Of a stretch of DNA of 64,000 nt, positions 2,656 to 41,346 are shown piece after piece; the stretch's first letter is position 1, and every line of letters begins with the position of its first letter. The translations under genes and the position numbers were made by a program. This DNA comes from Exiguobacterium sp. J17977 (GTDB lineage Bacteria > Bacillota > Bacilli > Exiguobacteriales > Exiguobacteriaceae): positions 1 to 64,000 of the forward strand of contig NZ_JAEQBB010000003.1 of NCBI RefSeq assembly GCF_018616375.1, written 5' to 3'. Below the pieces are notes generated by a model. The model did no database searches and had not been told where the DNA came from. It worked only from the letters and a program-made list of their open reading frames with translations.

Positions 2656-2686
2656 TGAAAAAAGAATCATCACGGAGATGATTCTT
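2656..2686 (-). terminator. terminator of the DUF6241-like gene
   Basis: Hairpin GAATCATC / GATGATTC at 2664-2685 read on the minus strand, followed by a T run (the A run at 2658-2663 on the plus strand). It includes the last codons of the gene it terminates. Confidence 0.8.
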
Positions 2687-3335
2687 CATATGACGTGTAC
2701 GTCGTTTCATTCAATGTGTTCAAGTATTCAGGTCCGAAGTTGTTCAAAATAAAGAGTTCTTCTTCGTTCTTGGTAGCTAATCCGTTCGAGAAACCTCTAC
2801 TCGCTTGGAGAAAGTCCAATAAGCGATCCTGTTCCTTGTCAGCTAGAGTGAAGTCACCTTGTGACCAGTGATCAAGCATCGTTTTCAATTCGGCGTACAT
2901 TCGATCGTCTATTTTAAATTTAGTTTTTAAGAGCTCCAAGTATTCAGCTGATTGTTGAATGTTCTGTGGTGTCATCGGAATCGCTCCCCATTTGGAACGG
3001 GCTGATATTTTTTGATGTGTCATCAAGTGCATGCTTTTGATCAATTCAGTTCGATTTGGTTTCTCTTCATTGAAAGAGACCTCTAATTCAACGCGAGTCT
3101 TTGCGGTGGAGTTGCCTCTCCGATCTAATGGATCTTCTTTAGATACTTCGATTTGTAATTCTTTGACGCGTTTGGCGTATTTGTCGTCAAGATTCTCGTT
3201 CTCGACACCTTGACTTAAGTTTTTATAAAACGTATAGCTGATCCAAAAGACTGGAATGAGCAAGATGAAGACACTCGTTACGATGATGAGTCGCTTCGGG
3301 GTAAATACCTGTTTCAGTTTTTTGAACAATATCAT
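2670..3335 (-). CDS. membrane-anchored protein, DUF6241-like
   Basis: Protein of 221 residues with one N-terminal membrane segment at about residues 17-37 and a hydrophilic extracytoplasmic part. The segment MHLMTHQKISARSKWGAIPM near residues 102-121 recalls the DUF6241 family of Bacillales membrane proteins; that assignment is from memory of the motif and is not certain. The start has a strong AGGAGG-type ribosome site (AGGAGGAA). It is transcribed away from the desaturase gene and ends in its own hairpin. Function unknown. Confidence 0.6.
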   Translation of the reverse strand: MILFKKLKQVFTPKRLIIVTSVFILLIPVFWISYTFYKNLSQGVENENLDDKYAKRVKELQIEVSKEDPLDRRGNSTAKTRVELEVSFNEEKPNRTELIKSMHLMTHQKISARSKWGAIPMTPQNIQQSAEYLELLKTKFKIDDRMYAELKTMLDHWSQGDFTLADKEQDRLLDFLQASRGFSNGLATKNEEELFILNNFGPEYLNTLNETTYTSYEESSP

Positions 3336-5008: not shown

Positions 5009-6166
5009 ATGAACGGGATGAGCCCGGAAACACTTAAACAGAAGATTGTGGCGTATGCGACGACGATTGGGATTGACGAGTTGAAAGTGACGACGGCCGA
5101 TCCGTTCATCGTCATGAAGCAACGTCTCGTGAAACAACAAGAAAAGGGATTCGCTTCCGGGTTCGAAGAGCCTGACTTGGACAAGCGGACAACACCGACG
5201 CTGTTGCTGGAAGAAGCGCAGTCGATTATTGCAATCGCCATCTTGTATCCGAGCAAATTGAAGGATGCGCCACGAAGTGTGGCCGATGAGCGCCGCGGTT
5301 TGTTCGCCCGGGCCTCATGGGGGCTCGACTATCATCGCGCCGTCGGCTCGAGACTCGAACAATTGCAGGCGTATATTGAACAACTCGTCCCGGGCGTCCG
5401 GACACGCTCGATGGTCGATACGGGAGAGCTGGTCGATCGGGCGGTGGCCGAACGGGCCGGAATCGGCTTCAGCGGCAAGAACTGTTCCATCATCTCGCCT
5501 GAGAAGGGGTCGTACCTCTACCTAGGCGAGATGATTCTAGACGCATACTTACCGCCGGACGAGATGATTGAGGACGGGTGCGGGGAATGTACGAAATGCA
5601 TGACGGCATGTCCGACGACGGCGCTCATCGAACCGGGTGTGCTCGACGCGAAACGTTGCATCGCCTATTTGACGCAAATGAAGACACTCATGCCACGCGA
5701 GTTCCGTTCGAAGCTCGGCGGACGGCTATACGGCTGTGACACGTGCCAACAAGTCTGTCCGTATAATCGGAAGAAGGACTGGCGTCATCATGAGGAACTG
5801 CTTCCGGAAGCGGAAATCGTCAAACCGTTGCTCGTCCCGCTCTTGAATATGAGCAATCGCGAGTTCAAAGCGAAATTCGGTCATCTGTCTGGCGCATGGC
5901 GCGGGAAAAAACCGATTCAGCGAAATGCGATTCTAGCATTGGCCCACTATCGGGAACCGTCAGCCGTGCCAGTGCTCGAAGACTTCATCCAACAGGATGA
6001 GCGCGAAGACATGCGGGCGACGGCCGTCTGGGCGATCGGGGCGATTCTCGGAACCGAAGCCGAGACGATTTATCAACAAATCGAGTCGACGGAGACGTCG
6101 GAGCTCGTACATGAAGAGATTCGATTATTCCGAGAGGAGTGGGACCGTGAAGACCGTGTCATCTAA
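5009..6166 (+). CDS. queG: epoxyqueuosine reductase
   Basis: Cytoplasmic cobalamin-dependent iron-sulfur enzyme that reduces epoxyqueuosine to queuosine at the wobble base of tRNA-Asn, Asp, His and Tyr, the last step of queuosine synthesis. The protein has 385 residues. A conserved Asp in MVDTGE (residue 137) matches the proposed catalytic Asp. Two [4Fe-4S] clusters are visible as C191-x2-C194-x2-C197-x3-C201 and C243-x2-C246-x3-C250, with an additional C217. The C-terminal part looks like HEAT-type helical repeats, as in Bacillus QueG. The start ATG has AAAGAGGTGA upstream; the longer open frame runs through the tRNA and is not used. Its 3' end overlaps ogt by 20 bases. Confidence 0.95.
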   Translation: MNGMSPETLKQKIVAYATTIGIDELKVTTADPFIVMKQRLVKQQEKGFASGFEEPDLDKRTTPTLLLEEAQSIIAIAILYPSKLKDAPRSVADERRGLFARASWGLDYHRAVGSRLEQLQAYIEQLVPGVRTRSMVDTGELVDRAVAERAGIGFSGKNCSIISPEKGSYLYLGEMILDAYLPPDEMIEDGCGECTKCMTACPTTALIEPGVLDAKRCIAYLTQMKTLMPREFRSKLGGRLYGCDTCQQVCPYNRKKDWRHHEELLPEAEIVKPLLVPLLNMSNREFKAKFGHLSGAWRGKKPIQRNAILALAHYREPSAVPVLEDFIQQDEREDMRATAVWAIGAILGTEAETIYQQIESTETSELVHEEIRLFREEWDREDRVI

Positions 6167-6590
6167 ATGGGGAACGTTAGCCTATGAATTGAACGCGAAT
6201 GGAAAGCTATGTGCGTTAGACTTCGCGGAGACAAAAGCAGATGATGGTTCGGCACCAGCTTGGCTGACCGACCTGATTCAACGTGTCGAACAAGACGGGC
6301 TTCAACCGTCTGATCGCGAGTGGATCGAGATGAACGGGACCGTCTTTCAGCAAGAAGTATGGGATGCGCTCTTGACGATTCCGTTTGGAGAGATGCGGAC
6401 GTACAAACAAATCGCCGAACAGATTGGACGACCGAAAGCGGTTCGTGCGGTCGGCCAGGCACTGAACCGGAATCCGTTACCTGTCATTTTCCCATGCCAT
6501 CGGGTCGTCGGCAGCGGAGGACAGTTGACCGGTTTCGCAGGTGGTATTCATCAAAAACAACGATTACTTGATCTCGAACAAGTGAAGTGA
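6147..6590 (+). CDS. ogt: methylated-DNA-protein-cysteine methyltransferase
   Basis: Suicide DNA-repair protein that transfers the methyl group of O6-methylguanine to its own cysteine. The signature PCHRV with the acceptor Cys117 and the helix-turn-helix region around residues 83-110 are intact. At 147 residues it is on the short side of the family because the N-terminal domain is abbreviated. The start was taken as GTG at 6147, behind AGAGGAGTGGG and inside the end of queG, which implies translational coupling. An in-frame ATG at 6114 is an alternative that would overlap queG further. Confidence 0.9.
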   Translation: MKTVSSKWGTLAYELNANGKLCALDFAETKADDGSAPAWLTDLIQRVEQDGLQPSDREWIEMNGTVFQQEVWDALLTIPFGEMRTYKQIAEQIGRPKAVRAVGQALNRNPLPVIFPCHRVVGSGGQLTGFAGGIHQKQRLLDLEQVK

Positions 6591-6600
6591 GGAGTAGATT

Positions 6601-7074
6601 ATGGCAATCCATGTAGTAATGTTCCAACCAGAAATCCCGGCGAATACAGGTAACGTCTCGCGCACATGTGCCGCGACCAATTCCGTACTTCATTTGATTC
6701 GTCCGTTAGGTTTTTCAACAGACGATAAAATGCTCAAACGGGCCGGGCTTGATTATTGGCAGTTCGTCGACGTGCGGTATCACGATTCGCTTGATGAACT
6801 ATGGGCCAAACACCCGGATGGAGAGTTCTTCTACATTACCAAGTATGGGGAACAGTACCCGAGTGACCTCGACGTATCTGCGGTCGACAAGGACTATTTC
6901 TTCGTCTTCGGACGCGAGACGAAAGGGTTGCCGATGGAAGTGATTGAGAATAACCTCGACCGCTGCATCCGTTTGCCGCAATCGAACCTCGTGCGGTCGC
7001 TTAACGTCTCGAACACGGCGGCGATTATCGTCTATGAGGCGCTCCGCCAACAAGGATATGCTGGACTGAAATAA
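6601..7074 (+). CDS. trmL: tRNA (cytidine/uridine-34-2'-O)-methyltransferase
   Basis: SPOUT-class (knotted) methyltransferase that 2'-O-methylates the wobble nucleotide of leucine tRNAs with CAA and UAA anticodons. Family motifs are present in order: NTGNVSRTCAA near residue 15, FGRETKGLP near 102 and the C-terminal LNVSNTAAIIVYEALRQ. The 157-residue length is typical. It follows ogt after 10 bases with a GGAG site, so queG-ogt-trmL form one operon joining two wobble-base modification genes with a DNA repair gene. The target tRNA-Leu(CAA) is at 1.35 kb. Confidence 0.93.
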   Translation: MAIHVVMFQPEIPANTGNVSRTCAATNSVLHLIRPLGFSTDDKMLKRAGLDYWQFVDVRYHDSLDELWAKHPDGEFFYITKYGEQYPSDLDVSAVDKDYFFVFGRETKGLPMEVIENNLDRCIRLPQSNLVRSLNVSNTAAIIVYEALRQQGYAGLK

Positions 7075-35780: not shown

Positions 35781-36518
35781 ATGTTGCACGTCGACCATTT
35801 GAATGGCGGTTATATAGGTAAGCAAGTGTTACACGATATTTCGTTTGATGTAAAAAAAGGTGAGCTCGTCGGGCTGATAGGGCTAAACGGAGCCGGCAAG
35901 TCGACAACAATCAAACATATTTTAGGATTGCTTGATCCGATTTCAGGATCGGTCGAAGTCGATAGCCAGACACTCAGCTCGTCAGAAAAAAATTATCGTA
36001 AGAAAATTAGTTATATACCCGAGACCCCTATTTTGTACGACACGCTGACGTTGCGTGAACATCTGACGTTGATTGGGAAAGCGTATGACATCGACGCGGT
36101 GGATTTGACGAGCCGGACCGAGCGATTGGCACGAGATATGCGGATGGAGAAGCAACTGGACTGGTTCCCGTCCGTCTTCTCGAAAGGGATGCGTCAAAAA
36201 GCAATGATCCTATGTGCGCTCGTGACGAAGTCACCGCTCCTCATCGTCGATGAACCGTTCGTCGGACTCGATCCACTCGCAATCCGGCAATTGCTCCGAT
36301 TGTTTGACGAGTATAAGGAAGATTGCGCCATCTTGATGTCGACACACATTTTAGAGACGGCCGAGCGCCACTGCGACCGTTTCGTCTTCTTGCACCAAGG
36401 GTCGGTCATCGCGACCGGGACGGCCGCGCAGCTGCGCGAGACATACGGTCTGCGTCCGGACGCCACGCTCGATGACATCTATGTCGAGGCGATTGAGGCC
36501 GAGGAGCGGAAACGATGA
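35781..36518 (+). CDS. ecsA: ABC transporter ATPase EcsA
   Basis: ATPase of 245 residues. Walker A is GLNGAGKST, the signature region is FSKGMRQK and Walker B is LLIVDEPF. In Bacillus EcsAB affects secretion, competence and regulated membrane proteolysis through RasP, although its substrate is unsettled. The start at 35781 has GGGGTGGAG upstream. It overlaps ecsB by four bases. Confidence 0.93.
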   Translation: MLHVDHLNGGYIGKQVLHDISFDVKKGELVGLIGLNGAGKSTTIKHILGLLDPISGSVEVDSQTLSSSEKNYRKKISYIPETPILYDTLTLREHLTLIGKAYDIDAVDLTSRTERLARDMRMEKQLDWFPSVFSKGMRQKAMILCALVTKSPLLIVDEPFVGLDPLAIRQLLRLFDEYKEDCAILMSTHILETAERHCDRFVFLHQGSVIATGTAAQLRETYGLRPDATLDDIYVEAIEAEERKR

Positions 36519-37645
36519 ACGTATTCAAACAACGATTTGGCGTCTGGGTGGAAGACGTCGTGAAATACAGCCGCTACGTCGCAAACGGCGGGTTGTTGTT
36601 CACGCTTTATTTCACGCTCATCTACGGGGCGTTCGTGTATAACCAGTTTTTGACGGATTTGGACCCGGATTTTCCGAGTGAATGGATCGTGGCGCTGATT
36701 TGGTTGTTGCTGCCGCTCGGGCATCGTCCCCGGACGTTGATTCAAGAAGCGGACCAAGTCTTCTTATTGCCGCAACTCGGTGAGATTCGAGCGTTCATGA
36801 CAGGCGTTCGCCTGTTCAACGTCGTCTTCGCTGCCGTCCGCGCCATCCTCGTCATGCTCGTCGTGTTGCCGCTGCTCGTTCGGACGCAAGCGCTCACGTC
36901 GGTCGAAGTCGGGGCCATCCTCGCGACGAGTGTGCTCATTTCAGCCGCGGGTCGTCTCGCCAAGTTGGAAGGCGTGAAATACGTCGTCTTGGCGAGTGCA
37001 CTCGCCAGCGGCTTCCTCATCCTGTTCGGCGTACCGCTATTGACCCCGGTGCCCGCGCTCGTCCCGTTCGTCCTGCTCCACGTGCGACGGAACCAGCGCA
37101 TCCCGCTGCTCGACTGGCTATTGCTCGAAGAGAAGAGCAAAGCCCAGTTCAACCGGGTCGTCAGTTGGTTCGTCGATGTGCCGGCGCTGCGGGAAGACGT
37201 TCGGGAGCGGTCGTTCATCGTGAGCCTGCTCGAACGTTCGGTATTGACCCGCGCCGATGCCGCCCGTTACGTGTACGGACTCCGGGTCATGCGGTCGAAC
37301 GATTCACTCGACCTCGTATTGCGGCTTTCCGCCGTCGCGCTCGTCGTCATGTGGCTCTCGGGCGGATGGTACGTCGGACTGGTCGTCCCGCTCTTCGTCG
37401 GGTTGACGGCGCTCCAACTCGTCCCATTATTTAAACGGCTCGACACGGTGTCGATGGCGTCGTGGTTGCCAATCACACGTACCGAAAGGCTCGTCGCCTA
37501 TAAATGGTGGGCGACTCGGTTGCTGTTCGCGCAACTGCTCGCCCTCGGTGCTGCCTCGCTCTTGTTCGGGGCGACGTGGGACGCGCTCGTCGGTCTCGTC
37601 TTGGCTTACGCGGTCGTCCGTTATTATTTGGCGAGATTGAAGTAA
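36515..37645 (+). CDS. ecsB: ABC transporter membrane protein EcsB
   Basis: Membrane partner of EcsA, 376 residues, with about eight to ten hydrophobic segments in two groups (residues 28-48, 100-175, 190-200 and 255-375). The ATGA overlap with ecsA shows coupling. In Bacillus subtilis an ecsC gene follows; here it is absent and the AT-rich accessory region begins instead. No clear terminator follows; a 7-bp inverted repeat GCCATTC/GAATGGC at 37687-37720 lacks a T run. Confidence 0.92.
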   Translation: MNVFKQRFGVWVEDVVKYSRYVANGGLLFTLYFTLIYGAFVYNQFLTDLDPDFPSEWIVALIWLLLPLGHRPRTLIQEADQVFLLPQLGEIRAFMTGVRLFNVVFAAVRAILVMLVVLPLLVRTQALTSVEVGAILATSVLISAAGRLAKLEGVKYVVLASALASGFLILFGVPLLTPVPALVPFVLLHVRRNQRIPLLDWLLLEEKSKAQFNRVVSWFVDVPALREDVRERSFIVSLLERSVLTRADAARYVYGLRVMRSNDSLDLVLRLSAVALVVMWLSGGWYVGLVVPLFVGLTALQLVPLFKRLDTVSMASWLPITRTERLVAYKWWATRLLFAQLLALGAASLLFGATWDALVGLVLAYAVVRYYLARLK

Positions 37646-38057
37646 AATAGACACGTTAACGTTGATTTGATGTCAAATAAAAAATAGCCATTCATTAATC
37701 GTGATTGAGGTAAGAATGGCAAATAGTTTTGAACGTAGGATTTATAATTTCAGAGAAATTGTGATTCTGCGTTTTTTTGTGCAGAAATATAAATTTGATA
37801 GATTGCCATTCATCATATGGCTGTTTAGAAATATGTCTGAACTGTATAAAATTTAGACATCAATATGTTTCCTTTTCATTAAACATGAATATAGAAAATA
37901 ATTGAACAGTTGGGAGACAAATAGAAGCATACAAGGCGATAATGCATTTTTAATCATTAAAATGAATCAAAGAGTCAATAGTGATAATTTTAAGATGAAA
38001 AAGAATAGATTCAGACCATCTTGACAAGCGTTTTAATTTGAAAGGGGTGCAATCGAA
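37646..38057. other. AT-rich intergenic region, no gene found
   Basis: About 410 bases with base composition clearly lower in GC than either side. The longest frames are short and lack ribosome sites. It holds the inverted repeats TTTGATGTCAAA (37671-37682) and GCCATTC/GAATGGC (37687-37693 and 37714-37720), and a second GCCATTCAT near 37803. TTGACA at 38021 has no matching -10. Probably the left border of acquired DNA. Confidence 0.55.
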
Positions 38058-38588
38058 ATGTTTGATGATTTTGATTTTAATCAAATCTACCAACAAAAAA
38101 AAGAAACTTCAAACTCTTTAGTTATAATGATGTGCGGTATCGCGGGGTCAGGAAAAACGACTTTCTCAAAAATATTAGAACAGAATGGTTTTGTTCGCCT
38201 CTCTATTGACGAAGAAATATGGAGGACTCATGGCCGTTGGGGAATCGATTTTCCAATGGAAGATTTCGAAAAATACCGTTTAGAGGCTGAAAACAAGTTA
38301 TTCGGTTTACTCATTGAGCTGATAAAGGGAAAAAAGGATGTCGTTATCGATTTTAGTTTTTGGGATCGTGAGAGAAGAGAAAGATACAAAAAAATTATTG
38401 AAGATTTCGATGGGAAGTGGTTACTTATTTATTTGAAAGTTGAGGAAAGTGAGTTGCGGAAAAGACTTCTGCTGCGAAGTAAGCGTTTCGATGCAAATGC
38501 ATTCCGCGTCTCAGATGAGCTTTTATTGTCATATCTGAAAGGCTTTGAAGTACCCACAGGTGAAGGTGAAATTGTAATAAATAATTAA
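38058..38588 (+). CDS. P-loop kinase-like ATP-binding protein
   Basis: Soluble protein of 176 residues with Walker A GIAGSGKTTF (residues 27-36), a nucleoside-kinase-like LSIDEEIWRTHGRWG segment after it, an Asp in VVIDFSFWDRERRERY and an Arg-rich lid (ESELRKRLLLRSKRF). It belongs with the AAA_33/zeta-toxin-like small kinases, some of which modify antibiotics; the substrate is not deducible. RBS AAAGGGGTG. Base composition is about 40% GC by eye, lower than its neighbours, suggesting horizontal transfer. Confidence 0.75.
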   Translation: MFDDFDFNQIYQQKKETSNSLVIMMCGIAGSGKTTFSKILEQNGFVRLSIDEEIWRTHGRWGIDFPMEDFEKYRLEAENKLFGLLIELIKGKKDVVIDFSFWDRERRERYKKIIEDFDGKWLLIYLKVEESELRKRLLLRSKRFDANAFRVSDELLLSYLKGFEVPTGEGEIVINN

Positions 38589-38611
38589 AGTAATGCATCC
38601 TTAGAGAATAG

Positions 38612-39113
38612 AATGTGATTTACATCGGGAGCGTCTCGAAGTCACTGAGTCCTGGACTGCGAATCGGGTGGGTCGTCGGTCCGGAGCCGGTCATCAATCG
38701 ACTGGCTGATATCAAGATGCAGACCGATTATGGATCGAGTTCGATCTCGCAACATCTCGTAGAAAAGTGGATCAGAAGGGTGATGTACCAGACGTTTATC
38801 GAGCAGACTCGAATCCGACTGAAAGAGCAGAGAGATTTCGTGGTGGAGCTATTGAGTAAGCATTTCACCCACATCGCCACGTGGAATATCCCTAGCGGTG
38901 GATTTTGGCTCGATCTGAAGGGAGACGTCTCGATTACCAAGCTGTTTCACTTAGCCCTGAAGGAAGGTGTTTTATTGAACCCTAGTGGTGTACGACAAAT
39001 TGGAACAAAACCATTTGCGAATCTCTTATGCCTACGCCTCGAAAGAAGAGTTGGAGAGAGGATTGCGTTGAGTCGCCGAGCTCGTCAATATGTGCACGAA
39101 TGAATCAAAGTGA
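38612..39113 (+). pseudogene. MocR/PdxR-type aminotransferase-like regulator, C-terminal remnant
   Basis: The frame from 38615 encodes the PLP-binding core SVSKSLSPGLRIGWVVG and the following small domain of a MocR-type GntR regulator. The N-terminal helix-turn-helix and most of the large domain (about 300 residues) are missing; the homology starts abruptly at about 38612, right after AT-rich sequence. Near 39019-39022 the family sequence leaves this frame: ISYAYASKEELERGLR continues one frame over, and there it meets a TGA at 39069-39071 before VAELVNM and the end at 39113. So the copy has a 5' deletion, a frameshift and a nonsense codon. Its base composition is host-like. Confidence 0.8.
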
Positions 39114-39263
39114 TAAGCCATAGTCGATTTCTATCAATACTCTCAGGGCGCTCTTGTTTGTTGTCATAATTCAAGTGAGCAGTGTGACTGGCATTAGCAT
39201 GATGTCAAACTGTTCTGTTTAATTGAATGAGAAGGTAGAAAAAATTAAAAAGGTGGGGGACAA

Positions 39264-39707
39264 GTGGAAGTATATCAAGCGACCATTGCAGATATAGAGG
39301 GAGTATCGAGGCTCTTCGATTCGTACCGTATGTTTTACGAAAAGCAATCAGACGTGGAAGGAGCAAAGTCATACATAAAAGCACGCATCGAAAACAAGGA
39401 GTCCGTGATTTTCGTTGTGAAGAATGAACAGGAGTATCTAGGGTTTATTCAACTCTATCCGACGTTCTCATCGATCTCGATGAACAAGTCGTGGATCTTG
39501 AATGACATGTTCGTGAAAGAGGAGGCGCGAAACTTTGGAGTCGGGCAACTTCTGTTGGACCAAGCACGGGACTTCGCGATGGAATTGGGCGCCCAGGGTA
39601 TCAGCCTGGAGACGGCACCGGAAAACACGGCTGCGCAAAGATTGTATGAAAAAAACGGATACGAGCAGGACACGCAGTTTCTCCATTACGTATTGCGTTT
39701 GATGTAA
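39264..39707 (+). CDS. GNAT family N-acetyltransferase
   Basis: Protein of 147 residues with the GNAT fold. The acetyl-CoA loop region is VKEEARNFGVGQLLLDQARDFA (about 85-106), with the pattern R-x-x-G-V-G in place of the usual Q/R-x-x-G-x-G/A, and the fourth motif LETAPENTAAQRLYEKNGYE. Substrate unknown. The start is GTG with AAGGTGGGGG upstream. It lies between the MocR remnant and amt, in sequence of intermediate GC content. Confidence 0.85.
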   Translation: MEVYQATIADIEGVSRLFDSYRMFYEKQSDVEGAKSYIKARIENKESVIFVVKNEQEYLGFIQLYPTFSSISMNKSWILNDMFVKEEARNFGVGQLLLDQARDFAMELGAQGISLETAPENTAAQRLYEKNGYEQDTQFLHYVLRLM

Positions 39708-39886
39708 GTTCTGTAGACCTTGCTATGTGAATGAAAGGGGAAACGCTTCAACCTTCGTCGCAACTTTCAGACCGGATTCGACGAGGGCGTGACAAGGAGT
39801 TGTCAAGGTCAGATGTGGTTACCTGCATCTAAGTCTAAGCCTTGGGTGTCTAGGACTTAACATTATGAGATTATTAAGGGAAAACT
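39708..39886. other. intergenic region, no gene found
   Basis: No frame with a ribosome site. It contains short direct and inverted repeats (for example TAAGTC ... GACTTA around 39830-39860) without a recognisable element. Probably eroded sequence at the right edge of the disturbed region. Confidence 0.45.
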
Positions 39887-39935
39887 AAAACGACTCCAGC
39901 CTATGATAAAAGAAGCCGGAGTCGTTTTCGTTTTT
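39887..39935. terminator. terminator upstream of amt 3' end
   Basis: Stem AAAACGACTCC (39887-39897) / GGAGTCGTTTT (39918-39928) with a 20-base loop, followed by CGTTTTT. Probably bidirectional. Confidence 0.7.
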
Positions 39936-39965
39936 CAAAAGTTGATTGGCCGATTCGTATAAGCT

Positions 39966-41264
39966 TTATTTCTTAGGTGACATGACCGATACGCTCGACC
40001 CGAGAATTTTCGGGAGACGTGCCGGTGCTTCTGGTTCTGTCTCGACTTCACCGTAAGCCGAAACCCCGTGCTCGGCGATGTCGAGGCCGATATCTTCTTG
40101 TTCTTCTGTGACACGAAGACCGATCGTGACGTCAAGGAGTTTCAAGAAGGCGTAGCTACCGCCACCGGCGATGACCATCGCGATCAATACACCGAGTGCT
40201 TGGACACCGAGTTGAGTCAAGCCGCCGCCGTAGAAGAGGCCGGCCGAACCGATGCCAGTGATCTCGACCAAACGAGGTGAGGCGAAGAATCCGAGGGCGA
40301 GCGTCCCGATGATACCGGCGACACCGTGCACCGAGAAGGCGCAGAGTGGATCGTCGATATATTTTGCCATGAGGATGCTTGTACCGTACGTGGCGATCGA
40401 AGCGAGCGCGCCGATGACGATGGCGGCCCAAGGTTCGACGAAGGCGCAAGCAGCGGTGATGGCGACGAGTGCCCCGAGGACACCGTTGACGATTGTCGGG
40501 ATGTCGGCCGTTTTCTTGTGAATCATGACGATGGCAAGAGCGCCGAGCGCACCGGCAGCCGTGGCGAGCATCGTCGTGAGAGCGACGTAACCGAAGAAGC
40601 CGTCCGCGACCGACATCGTCGATCCGGCGTTGAAACCGAACCAGCAGAGCCAGAGCACGAGTCCACCGACGACCGTCAAGACGTGGTTATGACCGGCGAG
40701 CGATTCCGTTTTACGACGTGGTTTCAAGATGATGGTGGCCATGAGTGCGGCCATCCCGCCTTGAAGGTGGACGACAGCCGAACCGGCGAAGTCTTGCATG
40801 CCCATCGTCCCAAGAAGTCCACCGGCCCATACCGAGCGGGCGACGATTGGATACAGGATGGCGACGAAGAAGATGCCGAACAAGACGTAAGCAGATAGTT
40901 TAGCCCGCTCTGCGAAACCACCCCAAGCGATGGCGAGTGCGACGGCGACGAATGACAACTGGAACAAGAATTTGATATCGATGGAGACGTTGGCCCAATC
41001 TAGGCTCGTGAACGAACCGTTCATGAAGAAACCTTCCGTCCCGAACCAGCGGGTCCCGTCCCCGAATGAGAGGCCGAAGCCGACAGCCCAAAAGGCGAGT
41101 GCCGCCACAGAGAGGCTGATGATTTGTTTGACTGCGACGTGCCCGGCGTTTTTAGCCCGGAGCGTCCCCGTCTCGAGCAACCCAAATCCAAGTTGCATCG
41201 TCAAGACGAGCAAGGCGGCGATGAGTACGAACAGCGTGTCCATATAATATAAGATGTCTTCCAT
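39966..41264 (-). CDS. amt: ammonium transporter
   Basis: Membrane channel of the Amt/Rh family, 432 residues with eleven hydrophobic segments. The twin histidines are visible in GSAVVHLQGG and FSVHGVAG, as are the signature segments around DFAGSAVVH. The C-terminus is a long polar tail (about 50 residues, ending in SPKK) that may contact a PII-like regulator; no glnB/glnK gene is next to it. Start at 41264 with AAGGAGGAA upstream. It is divergent from tnrA, with a TnrA box about 50 bases from its likely transcription start. Confidence 0.94.
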   Translation of the reverse strand: MEDILYYMDTLFVLIAALLVLTMQLGFGLLETGTLRAKNAGHVAVKQIISLSVAALAFWAVGFGLSFGDGTRWFGTEGFFMNGSFTSLDWANVSIDIKFLFQLSFVAVALAIAWGGFAERAKLSAYVLFGIFFVAILYPIVARSVWAGGLLGTMGMQDFAGSAVVHLQGGMAALMATIILKPRRKTESLAGHNHVLTVVGGLVLWLCWFGFNAGSTMSVADGFFGYVALTTMLATAAGALGALAIVMIHKKTADIPTIVNGVLGALVAITAACAFVEPWAAIVIGALASIATYGTSILMAKYIDDPLCAFSVHGVAGIIGTLALGFFASPRLVEITGIGSAGLFYGGGLTQLGVQALGVLIAMVIAGGGSYAFLKLLDVTIGLRVTEEQEDIGLDIAEHGVSAYGEVETEPEAPARLPKILGSSVSVMSPKK

Positions 41265-41346
41265 GTTGCGATTCCTCCTTTTTTCCGATTGATGATTCAA
41301 AAGTTGTTTTCAGTGTAAGACGAAAAAATCAACTTGGATTGCAAAT

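Follow-up and report, generated by a model that had tools for sequence, protein, structure and literature searches.

How did a kinase gene, the end of a regulator gene and an acetyltransferase gene come to lie between ecsB and amt in Exiguobacterium sp. J17977, and did they arrive together? We addressed this question in a stretch of 64,000 nucleotides (the window), which is contig 12 of a genome with 2.94 Mb in 27 contigs, by comparing it with a genus sample of 19 genomes that consists of the window's own genome, the one genome of its species, and 18 congeners. A preliminary description of this DNA had proposed that the insertion of AT-rich foreign DNA carrying the kinase gene removed most of a resident MocR gene.

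The two flanking genes, ecsB (36515..37645, plus strand; Pfam EcsB, E = 2e-55) and amt (39966..41300, minus strand; 92-99% identity in the 18 congeners), were found in all 19 genomes and are convergent direct neighbours in 18/18 congeners. In 15 of these congeners the stop-to-stop gap measures only 32-48 bp and forms a single hairpin (-18.2 to -26.9 kcal/mol), and in the remaining three it measures 171, 341 and 352 bp and contains no closed ORF above 47 aa. These three longer gaps (L023, L024 and L020 from genomes G001, G002 and G016) are AT-rich, with a GC content of 0.34-0.37, and represent another change in the ecsB-amt gap. The window has a gap of 2,320 bp (37646..39965), in which the old congener hairpin is lost and a different hairpin with 20-nt arms that are 90% complementary (inverted repeat I1, 39881..39934) lies to the left of amt on the map. 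The shape of this new hairpin is terminator-like as judged by eye, and a simple terminator scan called no site there. The change is closely bounded by the end of ecsB and the amt stop, the last codon and stop of ecsB are unlike those in the six closest congeners when the gene ends are compared, and no target duplication is visible by eye at the edges of the insert. A DNA search with positions 37640-39970 in the 19 genomes returned, apart from the window and the reverse match of its hairpin to itself, one match of 38 bp (84%) in a single congener, G018. The comparison shows that the short hairpin gap was replaced in this genome by a small mosaic of apparently foreign DNA, and the whole 2,320-bp stretch looks foreign and present in this genome only, as measured against the 18 congeners.

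From ecsB to amt, the foreign stretch contains an AT-rich leader, the kinase gene, the MocR remnant, the GNAT acetyltransferase gene and the new hairpin. The leader (37646..38057, plus strand, GC 0.289) occupies the 412 bp 5′ of the kinase ORF and holds no recognised gene or Rfam RNA; the single ORF there that reaches 50 aa (37701-37856) is without a Pfam match. A search for structured RNA across 37500-40100 gave two Rfam matches, both under their gathering scores; promoter-like sites numbered 5 versus 5.2 expected in shuffles, and terminator-like sites 0 versus 1.6. The kinase gene (38058..38588, plus strand) is intact and encodes 176 aa with a match to Pfam AAA_33 (E = 1.2e-18), and the GNAT gene (39264..39707, plus strand) encodes 147 aa with an intact domain (Pfam Acetyltransf_1, E = 1.7e-17).

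The regulator gene between them is broken. Its remnant (38612 to about 39101, plus strand; ORF 38615-39103) matches the last third of the NCBIfam model MocR_like_YczR, positions 302-423 of 458, so that approximately the first 300 residues are absent, and the intact gene, with an N-terminal GntR domain and a full PLP fold in one frame, is not present. Homology to five intact MocR homologues begins abruptly at codon 38612-38614, and the sequence before it is unrelated: at the breakpoint the five homologues read GNVLYIGSVSKS and the window reads stop-N-VIYIGSVSKS, with the intact-homologue reading GNVLYIGSVSKSLSPG retained from the N codon at 38612 onward. The preliminary description, which had placed a sharp junction near 38610 and had seen only the C-terminal part of a MocR gene, was thus confirmed on both points. 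In addition, a frameshift near 38985 displaces the expected C-terminal tail, which resumes in another frame with up to 65% identity to the homologue tails, and an in-frame stop lies near 39069. With the 5′ loss and these two further lesions, the remnant is a pseudogene. In its C-terminal aminotransferase-like part it resembles regulators of the MocR/GntR type such as YczR and PdxR (NCBIfam), with 63-67% identity to the nearest homologues, but unlike them it has lost everything before model position 302 and carries the frameshift and the stop.

Was this gene ever a resident of the genus? That an ancestral MocR gene stood between ecsB and amt and lost most of its length to a foreign insertion would fit the sharp change from AT-rich to host-like sequence within the MocR homology, but no MocR match was found in any of the 18 congeners, either for the fragment at E 1e-10 or at E 1e-30, nor, at the latter threshold, in 2 genomes that represent a different genus in the family. 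Moreover, where an intact MocR gene was expected in relatives, 18/18 congeners have ecsB directly next to amt, with the short gaps given above. These results contradict the explanation, and we consider it highly improbable. A search of the 18 congeners also revealed none with the same truncated gene, an arrangement that was proposed to mark an old, stable feature. Of the original proposal it therefore holds that foreign DNA abuts a truncated MocR gene, but the MocR and GNAT genes are themselves foreign; the cut by insertion may hold one level up, with the kinase piece interrupting DNA that had been imported before.

The other two genes likewise lack close copies in the genus. Searches with the kinase yielded three matches among the 18 congeners, at 25-27% identity, and the matches to the GNAT protein, located in four congeners and at one other site of its own genome, have only 32% identity.

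Nucleotide composition bears on the order of arrival. The kinase ORF has the lowest GC content (0.360) of the 47 non-overlapping window ORFs of at least 150 aa, for which the median is 0.536, in agreement with the preliminary view of an AT-rich small kinase gene. The second most AT-rich of these ORFs (2670-3335, minus strand, 221 aa, GC 0.403) is possibly a recent arrival as well. The GC3 of the kinase gene (0.335) falls within the range of its 19 homologues (0.217-0.627, median 0.362), 10 of which are as high or higher. The MocR remnant has a GC3 of 0.629 versus 0.232-0.296 in its six closest relatives, and the GNAT gene one of 0.599, with its two closest homologues at 0.192 and 0.329; neighbouring host genes range from 0.54 to 0.77. 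The composition suggests two layers, with a donor-like GC3 in the kinase gene and host-like values in the MocR and GNAT genes, and because of this contrast the right part seems a long-time resident of GC-rich genomes, the left part a recent arrival. The sequence to the right of the junction, which had been called host-like, is host-like in composition (GC3 0.62) but not in ancestry, as MocR is absent from the 18 congeners.

We asked how often the three genes occur, alone or together, in a class-wide sample of 398 Bacilli genomes from 145 genera. With the window included, kinase relatives occur in 17 genomes of 10 genera (E 1e-15), the five nearest with 61-67% identity, and MocR relatives in 119 genomes of 46 genera (E 1e-30). 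GNAT relatives were found in 50 genomes of 24 genera (E 1e-25), the nearest (64%) belonging to a different family of the class. In named genomes, a scan revealed 411 stretches that encode relatives of the MocR fragment, of which 80 were kept, mostly from Bacillus-like and Paenibacillus species, and none of these 80 loci contains a kinase match at E below 1. Reciprocally, the 16 kinase loci contain no GNAT match and only two MocR genes, both distant (28-29% over 78 aa). A conserved pair of kinase and MocR was rejected because the MocR genes that follow the kinase in two f4 genomes (G021, L136/L158; G197, L139/L205) are 22-29% identical to the remnant. In these two genomes, a CatA gene above its NCBIfam cut-off stands beside the kinase (5221-5877 in L158 and 4905-5561 in L205), and the MocR gene, which does not resemble that of the window, flanks the kinase on the opposite side. 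Of the 16 kinase genomes other than the window's, 12 also contain a GNAT match at 1e-25, versus 50/398 overall; a kinase-GNAT module was also rejected, as 10 of the 16 come from one family (f4) and in 12/12 the two genes are separated by at least approximately 29 kb or located on separate contigs. Among the genomes searched there is thus no sign of a conserved kinase-MocR-GNAT module, nor another place where the three pieces occur together.

Together, these results lead us to lean towards a history in two steps. A foreign piece with the MocR regulator gene and the GNAT gene, both with host-like codon use, would have entered the ecsB-amt gap, and a later AT-rich piece with the kinase gene would have removed two thirds of the MocR gene from its 5′ side. 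The regulator remnant is dead, and the intact kinase and GNAT genes may be in use. The short or empty gap in 18/18 congeners, the lack of close congener copies, the GC3 contrast, the sharp break in MocR and the missing sign of a module make two layers the most likely reading, against which it counts that one or another congener might be expected to carry a long-resident MocR gene, which 0/18 do.

The composition of the homologues also allows for another history. Because 20 of 109 MocR homologues have a GC3 at or above the window's value, and one GNAT homologue is nearly as GC-rich as the window gene (0.596 versus 0.599, with a range from 0.192 among the best-scoring 14 of those matching), a ready mosaic could have been imported once from a GC-rich donor. 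Leader, kinase, truncated MocR and GNAT would then have been assembled and broken in the donor and have entered together by illegitimate or flank-mediated recombination. One event would be enough to explain three genes without close copies in 18/18 congeners, but the strong difference between the kinase gene and the MocR and GNAT genes, with their GC3 of about 0.6, speaks against it, as do the plasmid records: among the matches listed in a plasmid DNA search, the places in 4 records fit only one piece each, although one of these records has a second place beyond those listed. A stricter search listed 2 of these 4 records, without the two Enterococcus records among them. We regard a single import as quite possible but less probable, and retain two successive imports as our preferred reading.

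Regarding the means of entry, the ORFs scanned with Pfam include no transposase, integrase or IS, and none of 17 inverted-repeat pairs sits at both ends of the insert. The direct repeat TAATGCAT, which flanks the kinase gene (37940 and 38591), was rejected as a target duplication because an 8-base match is expected approximately 0.4 times in such AT-rich DNA by a hand estimate. The locus therefore lacks the transposase or integrase, the terminal inverted repeats and the target duplication by which insertion of a transposon, IS or integron cassette would be recognised. A phage origin was likewise rejected, with 0 of 50,697 phage records matching the kinase protein or the locus DNA; scans of viral contigs gave 5 pattern matches for the kinase itself and 94 for its alignment, of which none was confirmed as a relative. 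Plasmids provide a different picture, as kinase relatives are present on 82 of 72,556 plasmid records, 68 of which are from Streptomyces. On the conjugative plasmid pKUB3006-3 of E. faecalis (L150), a relative with 60% identity lies between an IS6-family transposase and the tet(M) region. The distribution of the kinase family is thus patchy and partly plasmid-borne, with members in Bacilli, on plasmids of Streptomyces and on the conjugative plasmid of Enterococcus. The idea of foreign DNA at this locus is upheld by these relatives on mobile DNA, but the right part of the insert is not the resident sequence for which it had been taken.

What the kinase does was approached through its family. 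It matches Pfam AAA_33 (PF13671) over the whole profile (1-143 of 143) with 68.2 bits against a gathering score of 27, and its P-loop is intact. In AAA_33 P-loop kinases, the Walker A loop and conserved acidic and lid residues are the functional positions. An alignment of the window protein with 17 relatives (18 sequences, not counting the interrupted copies L138 and L152) has 40 invariant columns, among them G27, G30, G32, K33, T35, D51, D98, R136 and R140, together with E52, W55, F101, W102, R107 and a C-terminal FExP motif. In L204, a kinase copy (5731-6231) carries an in-frame TAG, and an adjoining fragment (6487-6747) resembles the C-terminus of a tyrosine recombinase by eye. From these motifs and known kinase anatomy, ATP would be bound by the Walker A loop, catalysis and lid function would fall to D51, D98 and the R136/R140 pair, and a pocket for a small-molecule substrate could be formed by W55, F101 and W102; a single-sequence fold model of the kinase (pLDDT 41.6) was too poor to assess this pocket. 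The nearest AAA_33 proteins of Bacilli and plasmids (for example, WP_231474217 of E. faecalis pKUB3006-3) share 60-67% identity over near full length and the same invariant motifs, and the window copy differs from them by a long branch in the tree. Against solved structures, the profile of the family matched L-seryl-tRNA(Sec) kinase (PSTK; 6e-06) and adenylyl-sulfate kinase (1.3e-05), but the window kinase falls far below the NCBIfam cut-offs of both families; its best match among the 25 of 26 models listed, L-seryl-tRNA(Sec) kinase, reached 22.7 bits versus a cut-off of 290.5. The kinase is likely a phosphotransferase with either a small molecule or an RNA-linked group as its substrate, as predicted from its motifs and profile matches.

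Because the preliminary description had called the protein zeta-toxin/AAA_33-like, we compared both assignments, and only the second was borne out. A toxin of the zeta/PezT type, acting in a toxin-antitoxin pair, would be consistent with weak matches to Pfam Zeta_toxin (E 0.019) and to PezT in the PDB (E 0.034), but the Zeta_toxin match has 14.8 bits, below the cut-off of 22.3, and covers residues 13-47 only. Furthermore, the sole leader ORF of at least 50 aa lacks a Pfam match, so that no epsilon-type antitoxin gene was found among ORFs of this size, and the neighbours of 16 kinase relatives include no constant partner. We consider such a toxin very improbable. As a candidate defence gene, the kinase was rejected with a best PADLOC E-value of 0.0054, and its matches to PHROGs were weak, the best (1.4e-07) to an ATPase family.

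A second suggestion was that the kinase is cargo in the form of an antibiotic- or nucleoside-modifying resistance enzyme. The patchy spread (17/398 genomes), the plasmid records and the copy beside tet(M) point in this direction, as do CatA, which adjoins the kinase in 2/16 loci, and a gene resembling an SMR efflux pump, below the SMR cut-offs, two genes away in 1/16. However, the kinase passes none of the 25 of 26 NCBIfam models listed, and GNAT, whose domain (PF00583) is 64% identical to its nearest homologue among these N-acetyltransferases, is below the cut-off in all 25 of 32 models listed. The neighbours are also varied: 63 were found at the 16 loci, and the 61 that were scanned (two were left out) comprise 76 Pfam families, the commonest in three proteins. 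The commonest families include NUDIX and glyoxalase-type (3 each) and CAT and MFS (2 each), which hints at compound modification without a fixed partner. A resistance enzyme is accordingly doubtful, and only tentatively do we propose that the kinase represents a family of small phosphotransferases, uncharacterised and spreading horizontally, that may inactivate an antibiotic or nucleoside-like compound. Among the literature titles listed, none concerned this AAA_33 kinase family or this Exiguobacterium locus, and for COG4639 there were no papers.

The event itself is ordinary horizontal transfer followed by decay, and the locus provides a clean, small example of such transfer, probably layered, in the gap between convergent genes. 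Its wider interest lies in the kinase family, which is carried on plasmids and retains its active-site motifs, and for which a phosphotransferase function is predicted.
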